From: a virus
Direction: 5' to 3' (one strand)
IMG/VR virus record: IMGVR_UViG_3300042904_000032
Span: 1 to 50,947 of that record
Length of the DNA stretch: 50,947 bases
Shown: in pieces, positions 128-50,947 of the stretch
Numbering within the stretch: the first letter of the stretch is position 1
Layout: each line of letters begins with the position of its first letter
Notes under the pieces: model-generated
What the model was told of the DNA's origin: nothing
The model's input: only the letters and a program-made list of their open reading frames with translations
Databases searched by the model: none
Position numbers and translations under genes: made by a program

Positions 128-991
128 AGAGCCAAGATTACAAACGTCAGAGTCATCTTCAGACGTAACTTCTGTACAAGCATTGCGAAGCGTTTCATTT
201 TGTTTATCCCCAAAGTTAAAAGAGAATCCTGGTTCGCCGGTGCTCATTGCTTGGAAACAATTCGCGAGGAAGACATCGTTATATTTTAGACTATATTCCG
301 TAGAGATATCACCAAAAGCACCCACAGTTGTTTTATGGCCTGCGTCTAAAGCAGCATCATCATAATTAACACTGATGTTGGTCATATCAAGGTTAGCTGG
401 GTGATTAAAGTCCTGTTCCTTTAGCCGCCTAACCTCTGGGCTCCAGTTCTTTGCAACTAGGAAATCTTTAATATCCGGATGAGCCCAGTTCAATGAGGCA
501 TAAATGGCGCTTCGCCGGCTGCCTCCCTGCATTACCCCGCGTCCCGCCTCATTAATCATTTGCATTAACGGGAGCGGCCCAGAAGCAGTGCCCCCTGTTT
601 TAGATAGGGGAGCACCTTTGCCACGTAGGACAGAATAATCAATACCAATGCCACCTCCGGTCATGAGACAAGACACAGCGCGTTGCATAACAGCCGCCCA
701 TTCCTCCCGAGTGTCTTCTTCAGCACGAAGTAAGAAGCAGTTATTGAAGTAGCTATGACCTCTACCACTGTACCAGATATACCGGCCCCCAGGCAAAAAT
801 CGGAAAGTTCGGATATACTCTTCTAATTGGGCCAATTCATCTTTAGCCATAAGCGGACGTTCCTTACCCCACCGTGATCCACACACATCCTCAACAATCT
901 CTTTAGCACGGTTTGCCCAAGTTTCACCGGGATACCTCGCATATTTATTATTGAAAATGTTTTGAGCAAATGTGCTTTTAAATTCTGTCAG
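1..991 (-). CDS. Ribonucleotide reductase, class II-like, N-terminal part (runs off left edge)
   Basis: This is the first 330 codons of a catalytic reductase subunit that reduces ribonucleotides to deoxyribonucleotides for phage DNA synthesis. It joins the fragment at the right end of the window across the circular junction (561 aa in total). Visible motifs are the first redox cysteine (NNCFLL), SCLMTGGGIGIDYS, QGGSRRS and the radical-site segment VCNLGSIN. No small subunit gene (NrdB) is present, which fits an adenosylcobalamin-dependent class II enzyme; that assignment is an inference. No ATG/GTG start with a ribosome site exists: the frame is closed by TAA a few codons upstream. A GGAGG lies 5 nt before CTG at 991, and this CTG overlaps the stop of the upstream HNH gene as CTGA. 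TTG at 1003 is possible but lacks a ribosome site. Confidence 0.93.
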   Translation of the reverse strand, partial: MTEFKSTFAQNIFNNKYARYPGETWANRAKEIVEDVCGSRWGKERPLMAKDELAQLEEYIRTFRFLPGGRYIWYSGRGHSYFNNCFLLRAEEDTREEWAAVMQRAVSCLMTGGGIGIDYSVLRGKGAPLSKTGGTASGPLPLMQMINEAGRGVMQGGSRRSAIYASLNWAHPDIKDFLVAKNWSPEVRRLKEQDFNHPANLDMTNISVNYDDAALDAGHKTTVGAFGDISTEYSLKYNDVFLANCFQAMSTGEPGFSFNFGDKQNETLRNACTEVTSEDDSDVCNLGSINMGNIETLEEFQSVVSLASKFLVCGTLRADLPYEKVYKVRE

Positions 992-1374
992 ATATGCCTC
1001 CAAATTTTACGTTTCCAGATATCCAATACATTAGTTTTCGAAATATTAAACATAGCAGCTACAGCACGACTAGAGAATCCCCCCTCTAAATGCCTAATAC
1101 GCAATACCATATCTTCTGTTAATTTACTATTACCGGCTTTTTCACCTTTTGCTTGGCGATTCTTATGTACCATATCGGCCGAGTTTTCTTTATGGGTACC
1201 AATTTTGAGATGATCTGGATTAACACATCTCGGATTATCACAAGTGTGCATAACTACATCACCCGGTTTTGCACCCATCAATACGCGATGGACATAAGCA
1301 ATTTTATTGTCTGCCCAAGTTACAGGATAACCTAAAGAATTGACGGCTTTATTCCAGATAATACAATCAGCCAC
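988..1374 (-). CDS. HNH homing-type endonuclease
   Basis: This 128-aa protein has an HNH_3-type core (HRVLMG, then MHTCDNPRCVNPDHL) followed by a C-terminal helix-turn-helix-like segment (SSRAVAAMFNISKTNVLDIW), the usual layout of phage homing endonucleases. It starts at GTG, overlaps the end of the upstream small gene, and its stop overlaps the proposed CTG start of the reductase. There is no room for an intron, so it is a free-standing nuclease inserted at the 5' edge of the reductase gene. The likely role is spread of its own gene by cutting intron-free or insertion-free relatives (inference). The family assignment is firm; the target site is unknown. Confidence 0.88.
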   Translation of the reverse strand: MADCIIWNKAVNSLGYPVTWADNKIAYVHRVLMGAKPGDVVMHTCDNPRCVNPDHLKIGTHKENSADMVHKNRQAKGEKAGNSKLTEDMVLRIRHLEGGFSSRAVAAMFNISKTNVLDIWKRKIWRHI

Positions 1375-2662: not shown

Positions 2663-2819
2663 CTTCTAAATCTTCAATAGCCTCATGATAAACTACCATC
2701 GCTGCATCATACCATTCCCAGTTATCAACGCCGCCGTCTTCTAAGGCGGCTAATTTTTCTAGTCGGCGTTGCATATCCCGATAAGCTGAGAGCTTAATAG
2801 TAACTAATTCTTCTGTCAT
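2655..2819 (-). CDS. Small acidic protein (54 aa), unknown
   Basis: The ATG at 2819 overlaps the TGA of the phosphoesterase gene (ATGA), and the frame runs 54 codons to a TGA inside the start region of the DUF3310 gene. The protein begins MTEELVTIKLSAYRDM, has a helical RRLEKLAALE segment and an acidic tail (EAIEDLEDE). It resembles the many short helical phage proteins of unknown function. Evidence is the coupled start and stop and uninterrupted packing. Confidence 0.72.
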   Translation of the reverse strand: MTEELVTIKLSAYRDMQRRLEKLAALEDGGVDNWEWYDAAMVVYHEAIEDLEDE

Positions 2820-3580
2820 AAATATTTCTTCTTTAGAAAGTCTAAGCTAATAAACATAGGATCAAACTCACCATCATTAACTTCATGAAGCATGAGAATT
2901 CCTCGCCAATGTTTATTACCTTGAGGCCCCAAATAATCTTCGTCATGCTCGTAACATGAGCCAGCAATGATCGATGTGAGTCGTTTTCCATCTGCACGAT
3001 GGCCGGTGGCTATTTGAAGGCCTTGTTGATGCCCTGCCACACAAGACATGTGCTTCTTTTGAAGCTGTGCTTGAGCCGTTGTACAAGGGCGTCCCAAAAG
3101 ACCGGTAACAAAATAATGGGCGTAGCAAATCCCATCAATAACAACAGGCCGGAGAAAAGGATATACCTCCCAACCGAAAGACTCATATCCAAGATCTGCC
3201 ACACTAATCGTACCATCTAGTTTTGGGTCTCCTTCGATGACCTTGTTGATTCTGTTTTCGTGGTTACCGAGCGTAAGGATCTTACGTGGATTGTATCTTT
3301 CACGATGTCCAATACGTGCTCTACGGTTGTATGCTTCGAGAGGGCCCAACAGCGTGGCCATAGCCTCATGTGTTGCTTCAATGTCAGCTTTGTACCTTCG
3401 ACCTTCAAAACTCTTTTTACCCACATCATAACTTGATAACGATGGGAGATCGGCAAAGTCACCGATGTTGATGAGTGTGTCAGGTTTCTTAGCAACAATA
3501 TAATTACCTATGGCTTCTAGAAATTTAAAATCATCACCGGGTCTGATCTGACAGTCTGGTAGAATTAAATGAGTAGATAT
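2816..3580 (-). CDS. Metallophosphoesterase, calcineurin-like; apparent ATA start
   Basis: The 254-aa protein carries the phage calcineurin-like phosphoesterase motifs in order: LPDCQIRPG (metal motif I, residues 8-16), NIGDFADLPSLSSYD (motif II), LTLGNHENRI (motif III, GNHE), and GH motifs near VAGHQQGL and the C-terminal third. Such enzymes hydrolyse phosphomonoesters or diesters; the phage substrate is unknown. The frame has no ATG, GTG or TTG before GTG at 3424, which would remove motifs I and II. An AGAGGA lies 8 nt before ATA at 3580, and translation from there gives the family's usual N-terminus. The ATA start is therefore inferred, and a sequence error is the main alternative. Confidence 0.85.
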   Translation of the reverse strand: MSTHLILPDCQIRPGDDFKFLEAIGNYIVAKKPDTLINIGDFADLPSLSSYDVGKKSFEGRRYKADIEATHEAMATLLGPLEAYNRRARIGHRERYNPRKILTLGNHENRINKVIEGDPKLDGTISVADLGYESFGWEVYPFLRPVVIDGICYAHYFVTGLLGRPCTTAQAQLQKKHMSCVAGHQQGLQIATGHRADGKRLTSIIAGSCYEHDEDYLGPQGNKHWRGILMLHEVNDGEFDPMFISLDFLKKKYL

Positions 3581-3618: not shown

Positions 3619-3804
3619 TTAGTCATCGAATTCTTCATCTTCATCATCACCAAAAGCAGCTACACCAAAATCAGAAGCAATTCCCATAGCCACGGCCATA
3701 TTCAATCCAAACTGCATTAAGGCTTTTAGCTCCGCTTCACCCAACACAACCACAGCATTTACTTGACCCTCTTCATCATATAGATTTAATTCATTAATTT
3801 TTAT
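3619..3804 (-). CDS. Small acidic-tailed protein (61 aa); apparent ATA start
   Basis: An open frame of 61 codons encodes a protein with a beta-rich start (KINELNLYDEEGQVNAVVVL), a helical middle (AELKALMQFGLNMAVAMG) and a strongly acidic tail (GDDEDEEFDD). No family is recognised. There is no ATG/GTG/TTG before an internal ATG at codon 30. An AGAGGA lies a few bases before ATA at 3804, and that ATA overlaps the TAA stop of the upstream HNH gene (ATAA), mimicking the usual ATGA overlap. ATT two codons later is an alternative start. Confidence 0.65.
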   Translation of the reverse strand: MKINELNLYDEEGQVNAVVVLGEAELKALMQFGLNMAVAMGIASDFGVAAFGDDEDEEFDD

Positions 3805-4163
3805 TTGGTGTTCCTCTTTCTTTTACTTTGTTCTTTACTAGATTTCTCATCATGACATGTGTTGCAAAGGACTTGTAGTCCCTGTTCATCACAAAATAGC
3901 CGACTAATATAATCGTCCCAGGTTGTGAAGCCTTTGTCTGGGTCCACAACAGGTTGAATATGATCGACCTCAATGTTTGTAGAAGTGTATTCCTTCTTAC
4001 AATTTACACATTGATAGTGCTGTGCTAGACGTCCAGATGCTTCGTTGATTTTCTTTTCTGTCTTAGCGGCGTTCTTTACATTGTGTTTAGGAGGCCACCT
4101 GCGAGTGCCTGCCCGTAATACACTAATGATGAAGCCTTTAATTCGAGCCTCAGTCCACTGCAA
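3801..4163 (-). CDS. HNH endonuclease (phage WTEAR...RRWPPK family)
   Basis: A 120-aa protein of a widespread phage HNH family: N-terminal WTEARIKGFIISVLRAG then RRWPPK, a zinc-ribbon-like pair CVNCKKEY, the HNH core VDHIQPVVDP, and a second pair LCNTCHDEK. Members are often found beside replication or terminase genes and act as DNA nickases or double-strand endonucleases; the role here is not known. I chose TTG at 4163 because GGGAG sits 7 nt upstream and homologues begin at this point. A longer frame exists up to 4217 but lies entirely within the exonuclease gene. Confidence 0.86.
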   Translation of the reverse strand: MQWTEARIKGFIISVLRAGTRRWPPKHNVKNAAKTEKKINEASGRLAQHYQCVNCKKEYTSTNIEVDHIQPVVDPDKGFTTWDDYISRLFCDEQGLQVLCNTCHDEKSSKEQSKRKRNTK

Positions 4164-4852
4164 ATGGCATCTCCCAAATCTTTCCCGGTTCCCGCTGTAG
4201 CCATAAGACCTGAGCATTCATTAACATTTCTTCGTCATTCCTATAGAGACTTCGCACATAATCAAACATGTCTTTCTCTTCAGTCATGTCTTGTAATGGT
4301 AGGGCGGCTTTCTTTCCACAGCCCACAACCCCTTTAATTCCGTCTCCATGGTCACCAACAATAAGCTGATGATAGAAATAACGCATAGCTTCTTCAGGAG
4401 TAACAAAGAATTTCTTAGCCTCAGCAACCACCACCCCCAATCTAGTTTGTTCCCATTGATAATGCCATCCGGGAACTTGTTTCATGTCTTTATCTATCGA
4501 GATAATAATAGTGCTTTCGGGAGGAGCTTGGCTCTGGCCTATTGCCAATCCATCATCTGCTTCAGCACCGTCCATAACTACTGTATTAAATTCATGTTGT
4601 AGTCTATGGCGACAGCTTGCAAGCCATTTAGGAATTGGTTTGCTTTTACGATTAAGCTTATATTCAGGAAAAATACCATATCGGAAATTATCTTTTCCAG
4701 ATAAATACCCCTGAACATCAGTTACTTCTGCCTCATCTACTAATCGGTCTACAAATGTGAGACAACGATTTTGAGCAATGTCTTCTAGTTCGTGCTCGGC
4801 AGATGCAGCACATCGATAGGCAACTAAATCAAAAGTCGACGAGTCCAATCAT
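4150..4852 (-). CDS. FEN-type 5'-3' exonuclease with +1 frame break near the start
   Basis: The protein (about 233 aa) matches the 5'-3' exonuclease/flap endonuclease family (compare T7 gp6), which removes RNA primers and flaps and degrades DNA during phage replication. Visible blocks are LVAYRCAASAE, DNFRYGIFPEYKLNRK, a metal cluster DGAEADDGLAI, ISIDKDMKQ, and the helix-hairpin region GDHGDGIKGV. The best start is ATG at 4852, with GAGAGG 7 nt upstream, giving MIGLVDF before TGA at 4831-4829. Skipping one T gives VDFDLVAYR, restoring the conserved motif-I aspartate. Starting at TTG 4848 stays in frame but loses that aspartate. It is either a programmed +1 shift at TTT-TGA, a mutation or a read error. 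Confidence 0.82.
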
Positions 4853-4929
4853 CGTCATACCTCTCTTTCATCCAAATCAACATTTTGGTTATGTTTTATT
4901 AAATTATCTGTCAAAGTCAATTAAACCAA

Positions 4930-5286
4930 TCAAAGAATTAGTTCCTTTGTATCCCCATCATCATCAGAATAGAACGCCCGAACCACACCAACAGATCGTA
5001 GAAGGCTTCGGCAACGAACACAAGGCATAGCACAGCCGATATTCCCACCTTTAGTAAAACGGGTGACGTAGATGGAACTCCCGACCAAATCGGTTTGATG
5101 CCCTCGTTTAAGAAGCTTGAGAACTGCTGCTTCTTCAGCGTGCACAGTAGGTTTTCCCAGCACTTTAGAATAACGAATTTCATTATAACCTGTGGACAAT
5201 ACTCGGTTACCTTTAGTAATTACAGCACCCAGCCTATGTCGCATAAAGGTGCTTTTCTTTGCCTGCTTTTCAGCTAGACGAATCAT
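4930..5286 (-). CDS. Deoxycytidylate/cytidine deaminase-like zinc enzyme
   Basis: A 118-aa protein with the cytidine/deoxycytidylate deaminase zinc site: H49-A-E51 (VHAEEAA) and P88-C89-x-x-C92 (MPCVRC). The catalytic glutamate is E51. The short length and RHRLGAVI, GYNEIRY segments fit phage dCMP-deaminase-like proteins, which feed dUMP to thymidylate synthesis. No thymidylate synthase was seen here, so host enzyme use is implied. It starts at ATG 5286; the upstream gene ends at 5317. An 80-nt gap separates it from the exonuclease. Confidence 0.85.
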   Translation of the reverse strand: MIRLAEKQAKKSTFMRHRLGAVITKGNRVLSTGYNEIRYSKVLGKPTVHAEEAAVLKLLKRGHQTDLVGSSIYVTRFTKGGNIGCAMPCVRCRSLLRSVGVVRAFYSDDDGDTKELIL

Positions 5287-6390: not shown

Positions 6391-7104
6391 TTACACGAAA
6401 ATCTCTTCCATGTCAAGCTTGTTAGGGCCTATTTTTAATTCACACGTCATTGGAAGAGAGAAATCATACCCATAATGTTGCTTACACAAAGCGGGCACCT
6501 TCTCAACCGATGTCTTCATCATCTTAGCCACATCAAGCACATATTCCTCTGGAGAATCAGCCACAAGGCTGTCATGGATGGTCCCTACGAACAGCGCGGG
6601 AATACCAGACATCTTAAGAGATTGATAAAACTCTATACGGGCAAGCTTCACTAGATCTGCTCCGAAGCCCTGTACGGGATAGTTCTTGATGATGGTGAGG
6701 GGCCATCGATAGCCATTCTTTTCAAACGGAAAATATCGTCCTGAAGGAATGACAATTTGCCCTGTACGCATCACTGTCAACAATAAATCATCGTGCCATT
6801 TCTTTAGTCCTTTATATTTCTCATAATATTGATCAATGACTCCTTGCCAGAATTTCTCTGAAGTACTTACCCCCATGAAGTCAGGATCATGTGCAAAGCT
6901 ATAAGCAGATCCTCCATAAATAATTCTGAAGGTAAGCACCTTTGCAACAAGTCTACCGGCCTTCCCTTCACCAAGTTTAAAAGTGTCTCTGTTTACTTCA
7001 TGAAGATCAATCTTTTCTCGAATCTCTTTAGCAAATGTCTGATCCCCTGATAACTCAGCTGCCGTGACGATTTCCAGGGATTTGACGTCAACATTAATCA
7101 GCAT
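6391..7104 (-). CDS. DNA polymerase, family A, C-terminal half (palm/fingers)
   Basis: This 237-aa frame is the catalytic half of a Pol I/T7-type replicative polymerase. It begins just before motif A (VDVKSLEIVTAAE, catalytic D6) and contains the fingers O-helix motif B with exact R-x3-K-x3-F-x3-YG spacing (R51, K55, F59, Y63) and motif C (H177-D178-S179). The exonuclease and thumb regions are on a separate upstream frame, and an HNH gene lies between them. Both halves together (about 630 aa) match the usual length. The two polypeptides must assemble to give an active enzyme, or be joined by some RNA-level event; no intron is visible. ATG 7104 has no clear ribosome site and may rely on coupling. 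Confidence 0.92.
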   Translation of the reverse strand: MLINVDVKSLEIVTAAELSGDQTFAKEIREKIDLHEVNRDTFKLGEGKAGRLVAKVLTFRIIYGGSAYSFAHDPDFMGVSTSEKFWQGVIDQYYEKYKGLKKWHDDLLLTVMRTGQIVIPSGRYFPFEKNGYRWPLTIIKNYPVQGFGADLVKLARIEFYQSLKMSGIPALFVGTIHDSLVADSPEEYVLDVAKMMKTSVEKVPALCKQHYGYDFSLPMTCELKIGPNKLDMEEIFV

Positions 7105-7568
7105 TCTATTTGAGCTAAAACACCTTTGGCAAAGGAAATTAGTTGTTCTGGAGTGGCGTTCCGTTTCATAAAATTCGCTAACGCAGAAATTACTTGAATA
7201 TTTCCCTTAATATATCCCTTGGAATTATCTATACGATCTAGAGATGCATTAGTTGGTTGAAATCCTTGGCCCTGTGTAGTAGTTAGGTCTACGTTTAAAT
7301 ATACACATTTATCTGGAATAGTAATATCAGATAATTCTAGATTAAATTCTAAATTTTTATATTTAGCATTTTTTCTAGCTTGAGCAAACAACTTTCTTTC
7401 AAAGTTATTTTCAATCCAATTACAATTACTTTTAAACCGTTTATCTTTGCATTTTTTAGCAGACTTGCGACTTATTTCATTCTTACGTTCTCGATTGGAT
7501 TCGGCCCAAAATTTCCATTTTTCTTTGTTTTCTTGATAATACTTTTGTCTATATTCTTTACTATTCAT
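7098..7568 (-). CDS. HNH-type endonuclease inserted between polymerase halves
   Basis: A 156-aa basic protein. The N-terminal 60 residues are repeats of lysine, arginine, asparagine and tyrosine (KYYQENKEKWKFWAESNRERK), a DNA-binding style seen in phage homing nucleases. The C-terminal part holds the nuclease-like core ASLDRIDNSKGYIKGNIQVISALAN, typical of HNH variants. It overlaps the polymerase N-half by 8 nt and the C-half by 7 nt. The codon use is much richer in A and T than its neighbours, consistent with recent arrival. Its target is presumably the uninterrupted polymerase gene between the PNLQN motif and motif A. Confidence 0.85.
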   Translation of the reverse strand: MNSKEYRQKYYQENKEKWKFWAESNRERKNEISRKSAKKCKDKRFKSNCNWIENNFERKLFAQARKNAKYKNLEFNLELSDITIPDKCVYLNVDLTTTQGQGFQPTNASLDRIDNSKGYIKGNIQVISALANFMKRNATPEQLISFAKGVLAQIEC

Positions 7569-8745
7569 ATCTAGTTAGTAACAATTTATCTAACTCCTCA
7601 GGGCAATTTTGTAGGTTAGGACGGGATGATGAAAGGCGGCCCGTGCGGGCGACGTTTTGATTATATTGACCATGAATCAGATTGTCTTGCCATCGTAATG
7701 TAGTCATAAGTTTATGCATACTCTCCAACATTTCCACTACCTTAGAGACTTTAGCACGCTTATCAAGGAGGTCGAGTAAATCCTTATCCTCTTTCCTTCG
7801 GCTTTTAAGTTGCTTAAGAGTCGGCTCATTGGTTTCGTAAAAGAGAGTTCCTTTGTATGTAGGTGCCAAGCATTTCTTGACTGTCGTGCCTTCAAGCGGT
7901 TTAAAGCGGAGTGGGAACGAAATCTCTTTTGTATGCCATGAGCGTTTAACGTATGCCTGCCCTTTCTTTTCGCCGGTCTTGTACACCGCGGGTTCTTCTG
8001 TTGCATACGGATAACTACCATTTCCGCCGTAGATGAGAAGAGATAGATCGTCTCCAGAATTCCAATTGAAATAGGCTTTCGCCTCTTCAGGTATAAAAGT
8101 CCAGAGCTTCTGATCGATAACATCTAAATCATCCTTATAACATCTGAGAGCATAATCAGCACCTTCGTAGTCCCATTTAGCCCCGTTCCATTCTGCTTCC
8201 ATGAGAGTCTTCATGTCCTCCCCTTCTAGAAGCACCAGCGACCTTTGCTTCTCATTCAAAGCCTGTTGCTGCAAAGGGAGCACCTCATAAATGGCCTCAA
8301 CATCCCGGATGTTATATGGCTTAAGAATTTCTATTGGAATGTCTGGTGTATCAATCCCCAATTCCCAATATTCTTTTACCTTATCTTCCTTGGGATCTAG
8401 ACCATAACTTTTTAAGGTGTCATCGAGACTTGCATAGGAAAGGGTTTGCCCAGAAAGAATGAATTCTCCTAGCTGTACATCCCAAATGACACAATCAGGC
8501 GGTGGAGTCCAATTTAGAACACGACGAATCCATAGCAAATCAAACTTACAAGCAAAGTTGACAAAACGAGAGCAACGGCTGAGGGCTTGTCGAAGGACAT
8601 CAAGGAAGTCAATGTCTGTGTAATATTTCCAAATAGTTGGTTCATCATCAATCTTTAAAGCATAGGAAACTAGAAAATTCTGGGGATCAAATACATGACC
8701 CTTATTCTTGGTTGTTGTCTCTACATCAAGAATTACTTGTGCCAT
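7561..8745 (-). CDS. DNA polymerase, family A, N-terminal half (3'-5' exonuclease and thumb)
   Basis: The 394-aa product carries the DnaQ-like proofreading exonuclease: motif I LDVETTT, motif II FVNFACKFDLLWIRR, motif III YNIRDVEAIYEV. The thumb region follows, ending with TGRLSSSRPNLQNCPEELD, the conserved block before palm motif A. The frame then stops (LLLTRYE) and the palm continues in a separate gene at 6391-7104 after an HNH gene. The start ATG comes 3 nt after the helicase stop with no strong ribosome site, so it is probably translationally coupled to the helicase. Confidence 0.92.
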   Translation of the reverse strand: MAQVILDVETTTKNKGHVFDPQNFLVSYALKIDDEPTIWKYYTDIDFLDVLRQALSRCSRFVNFACKFDLLWIRRVLNWTPPPDCVIWDVQLGEFILSGQTLSYASLDDTLKSYGLDPKEDKVKEYWELGIDTPDIPIEILKPYNIRDVEAIYEVLPLQQQALNEKQRSLVLLEGEDMKTLMEAEWNGAKWDYEGADYALRCYKDDLDVIDQKLWTFIPEEAKAYFNWNSGDDLSLLIYGGNGSYPYATEEPAVYKTGEKKGQAYVKRSWHTKEISFPLRFKPLEGTTVKKCLAPTYKGTLFYETNEPTLKQLKSRRKEDKDLLDLLDKRAKVSKVVEMLESMHKLMTTLRWQDNLIHGQYNQNVARTGRLSSSRPNLQNCPEELDKLLLTRYE

Positions 8746-50029: not shown

Positions 50030-50136
50030 TTAATGGCCTTTTTATCTTGATATGCCTCATAAAAGGGTTTCATATCTTGCCTTAACTTTTGTTCTAGAGC
50101 CTTAGCTAATTCTGGATACCATTCTTTAGATCCCAC
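50026..50136 (-). CDS. Small protein after the reductase (36 aa)
   Basis: GTG 50136, with an AAGGGGG ribosome-site-like run 5 nt before it, begins 36 codons (MGSKEWYPELAKALEQKLRQ, then a helical basic end) and overlaps the reductase stop by 11 nt. Its own stop overlaps the Ntn hydrolase start. A longer frame up to 50430 in the same phase overlaps the reductase and looks spurious. Confidence 0.55.
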   Translation of the reverse strand: MGSKEWYPELAKALEQKLRQDMKPFYEAYQDKKAIK

Positions 50137-50947
50137 AGCTTCCCCCTTTTCCGCTAATTTCACATACGTCGTTTTCTTCGTAGACGACGCCTTTGTGTTT
50201 GAGGGCTTCGTCGTAGGAACATTCTGTGATGGGTTGACCTCCTCTAGAACCATCTGGATAGGCGGTAAAGCCCCGAAGCCTTGGAGCATACTTTGCAAGC
50301 GTTTCTGCAAACTTTCCAACAACTGATTCATTGTTATCTTTCGAGCCCCAAGCAGGTAAGTTGATTGTACTGGAAATTGACATGTCAACGTAATCTTGTA
50401 CGTCTGCTTGGAATTTAATTCGTTGCTCATAATTATGACTTAGCTTGTAAGCGGTGTCGATGTTCTCTGGAGAAAGCCCGTATTGGCGAATGAGTTGATC
50501 TGCTGTGCTGTCAACAACATATTCATACTTCCATTTAGTGCCGTCAGTAAGGTAGCGGCGCTTGTAGGCCACTGCAAAGAGAGGTTCAATACCGGTAGTA
50601 GTGCCAGCGAGGATGCCAATGGTGCCTGTTGGTGCAATTGCGCGATACGCAACTGGTTTAGATATGTAAAAACGCTCGCAATGATCATTTGCCGATTTTT
50701 CTGATTCTGATTCATATACTTTTAACCATTCATGTAATTCTGGAGTTACTTCGTATCCGTAGCCCCGTTTGAGGAGCCATTCGTGCATGCCCATAAGTCC
50801 GAGGCCAAGGCGCCGATTCTTTTCCCTAACTTTATAGACCTTTTCGTATGGTAAATCAGCTCGAAGGGTGCCGCAAACAAGGAACTTCGACGCCAAGGAG
50901 ACAACGGATTGGAACTCTTCCAAAGTTTCAATATTGCCCATGTTGAT
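50126..50947 (-). CDS. Ribonucleotide reductase, class II-like, C-terminal part (runs off right edge)
   Basis: The C-terminal part of the reductase that begins at the left edge. Visible are NLGSINMGNIETLEEF continuing from the left fragment, RRLGLGLMGMHEWL, IAPTGTIGILAGTTTGIEPLFAVAYKRRY (the conserved phosphate-binding and substrate loop), SISSTINLPAW and the redox tail CEISGKGGSCGI (C-x6-C at the very end, used to receive reducing equivalents from thioredoxin or glutaredoxin). Length of the joined protein is 561 aa, short relative to bacterial NrdJ but usual for phages. Confidence 0.93.
   Translation of the reverse strand: MNMGNIETLEEFQSVVSLASKFLVCGTLRADLPYEKVYKVREKNRRLGLGLMGMHEWLLKRGYGYEVTPELHEWLKVYESESEKSANDHCERFYISKPVAYRAIAPTGTIGILAGTTTGIEPLFAVAYKRRYLTDGTKWKYEYVVDSTADQLIRQYGLSPENIDTAYKLSHNYEQRIKFQADVQDYVDMSISSTINLPAWGSKDNNESVVGKFAETLAKYAPRLRGFTAYPDGSRGGQPITECSYDEALKHKGVVYEENDVCEISGKGGSCGI
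50821..50947. repeat. Direct terminal repeat (circular assembly overlap), right copy
   Basis: Identical to positions 1-127. See the left copy: the repeat lies in the reductase gene and marks the overlap of a circular contig. Confidence 0.93.

Follow-up and report, generated by a model that had tools for sequence, protein, structure and literature searches.

Natural ribosomal bypassing next to a homing endonuclease has been known in phages from hardly any gene other than gene 60 of T4. According to the passages of a 2016 review that deal with this case, the homing endonuclease gene mobA lies beside a split essential gene and the break has been proposed to protect against the nuclease (PMC5009743). 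The same passages state that no natural in-frame stop-hop was known, that the existence of shorter matched-codon counterparts had been assumed for a long time and that 'shifty stops' and 'stop-hops' of synthetic origin go back to Weiss et al. 1987. Homing endonuclease insertions that split phage genes, such as Aeh1 nrdA/mobE, are described in part of PMC2988022. A precedent for tRNA-Phe at a +1 shift site is provided by prfB (RF2), as the section concerned of PMC12421855 includes 21 genomes with TTTTTGA. The literature searches brought up no phage exonuclease for which recoding has been described.

The locus described here is carried by a 50,947-base virus record, analysed over its whole length (hereafter the window), of a phage related to Methylophilales phage MEP401 (Zobellviridae). 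It is best read as the scar of a homing cassette whose nuclease needs a +1 shift at a shifty stop, a reading to which about an even chance (roughly 0.5) can be given.

Duplicated N-terminus and frame break of the exonuclease gene

The window and MEP401 share the gene order primase, helicase, split polymerase, exonuclease and calcineurin-like gene. Upstream of the exonuclease lies a dCMP/cytidine deaminase gene (4930–5286, minus strand; PF00383, E 6e-15). The 3′ end of the exonuclease gene is overlapped by an HNH endonuclease gene (3801–4217, minus strand; PF01844), which is not counted within the insert described below because the MEP401 exonuclease is likewise overlapped at its 3′ end by an endonuclease gene (MEP401_gp18). 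A tRNA scan of the window gave no tRNA.

Several other genes of the window have unusual structures. The family A polymerase (6391–8745, minus strand) consists of two ORFs with a third one (7098–7568), presumably HNH-like, in between; the polymerase of MEP401 is similarly split. We also take a small ORF (988–1374, minus strand, MADCIIWNKAV...) to resemble an HNH homing endonuclease. The left end (32–715) has a ribonucleotide reductase-like match and the right-end ORF (50126–50947) is presumably the other part of that gene, which suggests that the record is cut inside it or circularly permuted. The calcineurin-like phosphoesterase gene (2816–3580, minus strand; 59–60% identity to MEP401 gp20) has no ATG, GTG or TTG at its start, where ATA 3580 aligns near Met; in some relatives this gene seemingly starts with ATT (L021, L025, L035) or CTG (L020). 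ATT also seems to be the start codon of the exonuclease in L019 (3424) and L020 (3015).

As originally predicted, ATG 4852 on the minus strand follows a good ribosome site (AAAGAGAGG, 4860–4868, minus strand; a Shine-Dalgarno (SD) sequence with 7 nt spacing) and reads M I G L V D F before a TGA; a second in-frame ATG is found at 4858. The +1 frame resumes at GAT 4830 as DLVAYRCAASAE... and is open to the stop at 4150. A +1 break at a shift-prone UUU-UGA (4829–4834, minus strand) within motif I of a FEN-type nuclease, the core of that prediction, is real as sequence. At this candidate site, the P-site tRNA on UUU would re-pair on UUU one base on, and reading would resume at GAU 4830. A start at TTG 4848 (232-aa ORF, reading MDSSTFDLVAYR) avoids the shift, and it gives a protein that lacks the motif I Asp. 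The loss, also foreseen, is borne out by the family profile, which aligns this first Asp with the D of the Taq polymerase stretch starting at residue 16 (LVDG).

The prediction had overlooked a native copy of the N-terminus at TTG 4933. This copy 1 (4904–4933, minus strand) reads TTG ATT GGT TTA ATT GAC TTT GAC AGA TAA, that is MIGLIDFDR followed by a stop (TAA 4906–4904), has an SD-like AAAGGA 9 nt upstream and lies 81 nt upstream of ATG 4852 in the same frame. The deaminase TGA (4932–4930) overlaps TTG 4933 (TTGA overlap). As the end of a similar deaminase-like ORF overlaps the exonuclease ATG in L005 in the same way (ATGA overlap), TTG 4933 is taken as the native start of the exonuclease. 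The D-F-D of copy 1 is a natural variant, since L167 has GAC TTT GAC in a plain frame.

Comparison of copy 1 and copy 2 with the exonuclease body delimits an insert of about 82 nt (4829–4910, minus strand), whose register is ambiguous by the repeat TTTGA and which is absent in L005 and L002. It splits the D-F-D codons of the D-x-D metal motif and carries the second SD, an ATG and a partly recoded N-terminus. This copy 2 (4829–4858, minus strand) starts at ATG 4858 or 4852 and reads MTMIGLVDF before the TGA (4831–4829); over six codons, it has three identical, two synonymous and one conservative codon relative to copy 1. The frame break is located at the 3′ junction of the insert. The DNA around this junction gave one weak phage match, MEP402, and that around the junction of L057, a broken locus described below, gave no phage match. 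A 21-codon open frame within the insert was not accepted as evidence, its length being expected by chance; its TGA overlaps ATG 4858, as endonuclease stops overlap an ATG in L039 and L186.

Translation might also begin at the native TTG 4933, with the ribosome skipping the insert or with excision of the insert from the RNA. If the insert is treated as a gap, copy 1 and the body share one frame, with identical UUU and synonymous GAC/GAU codons on both sides. This is nevertheless very improbable, as the second SD, the ATG and the recoded copy would be left unexplained and as sliding at T4 gene 60 declines once a gap is longer than 56 nt, according to the relevant part of PMC11194080, a length that the insert surpasses. 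Moreover, no Rfam family matched the window at the gathering threshold. In L039, L057 and L027, Rfam found only an abiF RNA (RF03085; L057:2290–2326) near the exonuclease, and a permissive scan of the L039 insert gave only a chance-level snoRNA. A group I intron is unsupported, as the scans of the window and of these three loci contained none.

A one-base sequencing or assembly error in the T run would turn copy 2 into a plain replacement start. The broken and the plain version are one base apart, the N-terminus encoded by copy 2 is normal in other respects and plain restarts linked to an endonuclease exist (L196, L197 and L198, see below). Against this, the run of four T is short, and a comparison of the window with 2,349 open frames from relatives, blind within a few codons of gene ends, detected no other frame break in the 31.4 kb of coding sequence covered by homologues. 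An error would, in addition, have had to strike precisely where the one insert detected meets the body, which makes this explanation improbable.

Motif I breaks in related exonuclease genes

Exonuclease matches were obtained in 258 of 285 loci. Removal of those with no recognisable motif or with less than 200 nt upstream and of sequence duplicates left 176 distinct loci, window included. In 167 of them the frame is plain, whereas nine, including the window, have a stop or a shift in motif I. The apparent breaks of L032 and L200 were judged to be artefacts of the pattern and removed by hand. Genome contigs account for 39 further distinct loci within this count, none of which is broken. The comparison of exonuclease starts comprises 67 rows, two of them mis-registered (L089 and L091); L186–L188 derive from an endonuclease search and L189–L206 were hand-picked, partly on a suspected endonuclease or a missing N-terminus. 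Searches of IMG/VR for the exact window junction and, with a degenerate motif I pattern, for the same TTTTGA break gave no match. Relatives with a plain frame, which the original prediction had named as evidence against itself, are found (167 of 176 loci), and related stops or shifts affect the same motif in eight other loci, several of the phages concerned being only distant relatives.

The breaks of these eight loci take various forms: +1 at TTT C in L054, CTT TGA C CTA CGT in L199 (Vibrio phage Phriendly), GAC GCT TAG CT GAT in L186, GAC TCC TAG CT GAY in L039 and L057, CTT TAG CTT in L047, CTG TGA CTA in L191 (PQ867848) and CTT TAA CTT in L201 (Vibrio phage 177E37-1, OX241560). With resume codons picked by the length of plain homologues, they are read as shifts or hops of +1 (window and L054), +1 or +7 (L199) and +5 (L186, L039 and L057) and as +6 stop-hops (L047, L191 and L201); for the in-frame cases, plain readthrough of the stop, which adds two residues, is another possibility. 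Take-off and landing codons are identical in four broken genes (UUU in the window, GCU in L186 as GCU-UA-GCU, CUU in L047 and L201), synonymous in three (UUU/UUC in L054, CUU/CUA in L199, CUG/CUA in L191) and unmatched in the module shared by L039 and L057 (UCC/GCU). Judging from these sequences, ribosomes may slip or hop at the breaks. The broken loci also expose annotations in which the nuclease starts downstream of the stop, so that the active-site motif is omitted (GenBank records of L191, L199 and L201). Other irregularities of exonuclease genes are an in-frame HNH-AP2-like block within the body of L057 (3066–4271) and an exonuclease in two pieces about 400 nt apart in L027 (2858–3948).

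The exonuclease body of the window (4150–4830, minus strand) is intact over 225 codons and is assigned to the FEN-type 5′-3′ exonucleases by the Pfam family 5_3_exonuc_N (PF02739, 36.1 bits for a cut-off of 34.3). The shifted product would have the acidic metal ligands D8, E99, D101, D102, D122, D124, D169 and D172. The insertion could nonetheless have inactivated the gene, the body of this dead allele being intact because the event is recent or because the phage manages without the enzyme or receives help in trans. The PF02739 match is the only one in the window, which fits either loss or need. Conservation makes such a dead allele rather unlikely: when aligned with 93 representatives, the window body departs from the family at one of 36 conserved columns and agrees with it at the other 35, two departures being typical (range 0–6); L039 and L057 deviate at 2 of 37 and 3 of 27. 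Despite its stop, L201 differs from the plain L204 by eight synonymous changes and one nonsynonymous change in 258 codons. Similarly, L039 and its close plain relative L038 have seven and six lineage-specific changes, and their bodies differ by 26, 15 and 82 nucleotides at codon positions 1, 2 and 3.

Homing-type endonuclease genes beside the breaks

A homing-type endonuclease gene is located immediately upstream of the exonuclease in six of the nine broken loci and in eight of the 167 plain ones; such genes were recognised by similarity to nine reference ORFs from the compared loci (three families) and called homing endonucleases from families and annotations alone. Breaks affect 6/14 loci with such a neighbour, a proportion biased by the choice of L186–L206 by endonuclease search or by hand, and 3/162 loci without it (p 6e-6, a significance inflated by relatedness and by the hand-picked loci). 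Among loci from those IMG/VR scans that had not been selected by endonuclease, two of four with the neighbour are broken versus two of 111 without (p 0.005). The gene that ends at or near the exonuclease start is of Endo VII or HNH type in L039, L186, L047, L191, L199 and L201. Among phage nucleases of the Endo VII type, homing is established for the F-CphI family, according to the part of PMC6083498 devoted to them. Six of the eight other broken loci have this neighbour, whereas the 260 nt upstream in the window gave no match to the three endonuclease families tested.

Two loci illustrate how endonuclease and break are associated. In L201, the clearest case, a NUMOD4-HNH ORF has the native start of the exonuclease fused to it (MKAPIDAEVW...) and is followed by a recoded start, CTT-TAA-CTT and the body. 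Six of the nine codons of the recoded start are synonymous to those of the plain relative L204 and one is changed, and the body has 96–97% nucleotide identity with those of the plain L203–L205. The L039 locus consists successively of a native 5′ copy, an Endo VII homing-type ORF, an SD with an ATG, a recoded VLID and TCC-TAG-CT-GAC. Its layout matches that of the window, which has the native remnant, the restart and the break and in which the endonuclease is absent. The break is not obligatory, since eight of the 14 endonuclease-linked exonucleases are plain and since L196, L197 and L198, whose HNH ORF also begins with a copy of the exonuclease N-terminus, restart in a plain frame.

A 54-nt module of L039 and L057 (SD, hairpin with the ATG, stop) is 83% identical between the two loci, while their nucleases have about 40% identity over the best stretch. 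It looks horizontally moved. Further copies were sought and only these two contigs have it, the matches in four other contigs being due to chance.

As the endonuclease is absent upstream, a cassette origin is proposed for the window by analogy: it would once have held a homing endonuclease. The scar reading can be detailed as follows. An insertion of the homing-endonuclease type would have hit the motif I codons and cut off the native TTG 4933 start within the D-F-D codons. The insert would have supplied a new ribosome site, an ATG and a partly synonymously recoded N-terminus, one base out of register with the body. Full-length nuclease would then be obtained by a +1 shift at UUU-UGA, where tRNA-Phe would re-pair from UUU to UUU. 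The changed N-terminal DNA may shield the exonuclease gene against endonuclease attack, a role that has also been suggested for the bypass in T4 gene 60.

A broader proposal is more tentative and somewhat doubtful. Short ribosomal hop or slip sites in the motif I codons of phage exonucleases might have arisen several times and spread with homing endonuclease cassettes of three families. They would be miniature counterparts of the gene 60 bypass of T4, in which the altered DNA and the inserted stop confer immunity to the endonuclease and translation across the break still yields the protein. For two of the candidates, L199 (Phriendly, V. natriegens) and L201 (177E37-1), the phage record names a host or an isolate, which makes the recoding question directly testable.

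Search for recoding signals and comparison with known systems

RNA structure prediction shows nothing that stands out downstream of the window site (z between −1.0 and 0.6). The 5′ hairpin is weak, and a strong hairpin is not claimed for the window because 30 of 109 plain starts are as stable. By contrast, a strong hairpin ends exactly at the first Asp codon in L039, L057 and L186, where only 2, 0 and 0 of 109 plain starts, respectively, are as stable; that of L047 is not strong (22 of 109). A U at position +4 favours termination, according to part of PMC5289835. Termination at UGAU is efficient and the search for a stimulator was negative, so that any shift in the window may be of low efficiency; both observations are points in favour of the dead allele.

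The original prediction also likened the layout to prfB and envisaged that nuclease production, if the shift is programmed, would depend on RF2. What stands is the slippery TTT directly before an in-frame TGA (4834–4829): as in prfB, a pyrimidine shift codon precedes UGA near the 5′ end. The remainder differs. No internal SD-like sequence is found 3 nt upstream of the slippery site (the window reads GGACTCGTCGAC), in agreement with a remark of the prediction itself; U, not C, follows UGA; and the predominance of plain loci shows that the site is not conserved. A prfB-type element was rejected, as three of the four tested features fail, conservation among them, and RF2-dependent production is unsupported on the same grounds. 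A programmed +1 frameshift sensing RF2 is consequently the least probable of the readings considered here, in spite of the short leader before UUU-UGA, of the prfB variants with tRNA-Phe mentioned above and of the literal heptamer CTTTGAC carried by L199. The better context for the window is an insertion that duplicates the N-terminus, with related breaks in eight other loci, six of them beside a homing-type endonuclease.

The window has in common with T4 gene 60 and mobA a stop beside the take-off codon and a matched landing codon (UUU-UGA, landing on UUU, resuming at GAU). It differs in that the gap is 50 nt in T4 gene 60, while in the copy 2 reading a +1 shift skips one base, far from a long gap. 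Furthermore, the gene is a different one, the endonuclease is absent, the N-terminus is duplicated and partly recoded, and the fused product is a predicted one. With Aeh1 nrdA/mobE, the present loci share the insertion of a homing endonuclease in a critical part of a replication gene, but the N-terminal fragment is tiny here and is re-supplied by the insert. Finally, the matched codons around the stop recall the synthetic shifty stops and stop-hops. Here, the candidate sites are in natural phage genes, and these loci provide concrete candidates for natural stop-hops.
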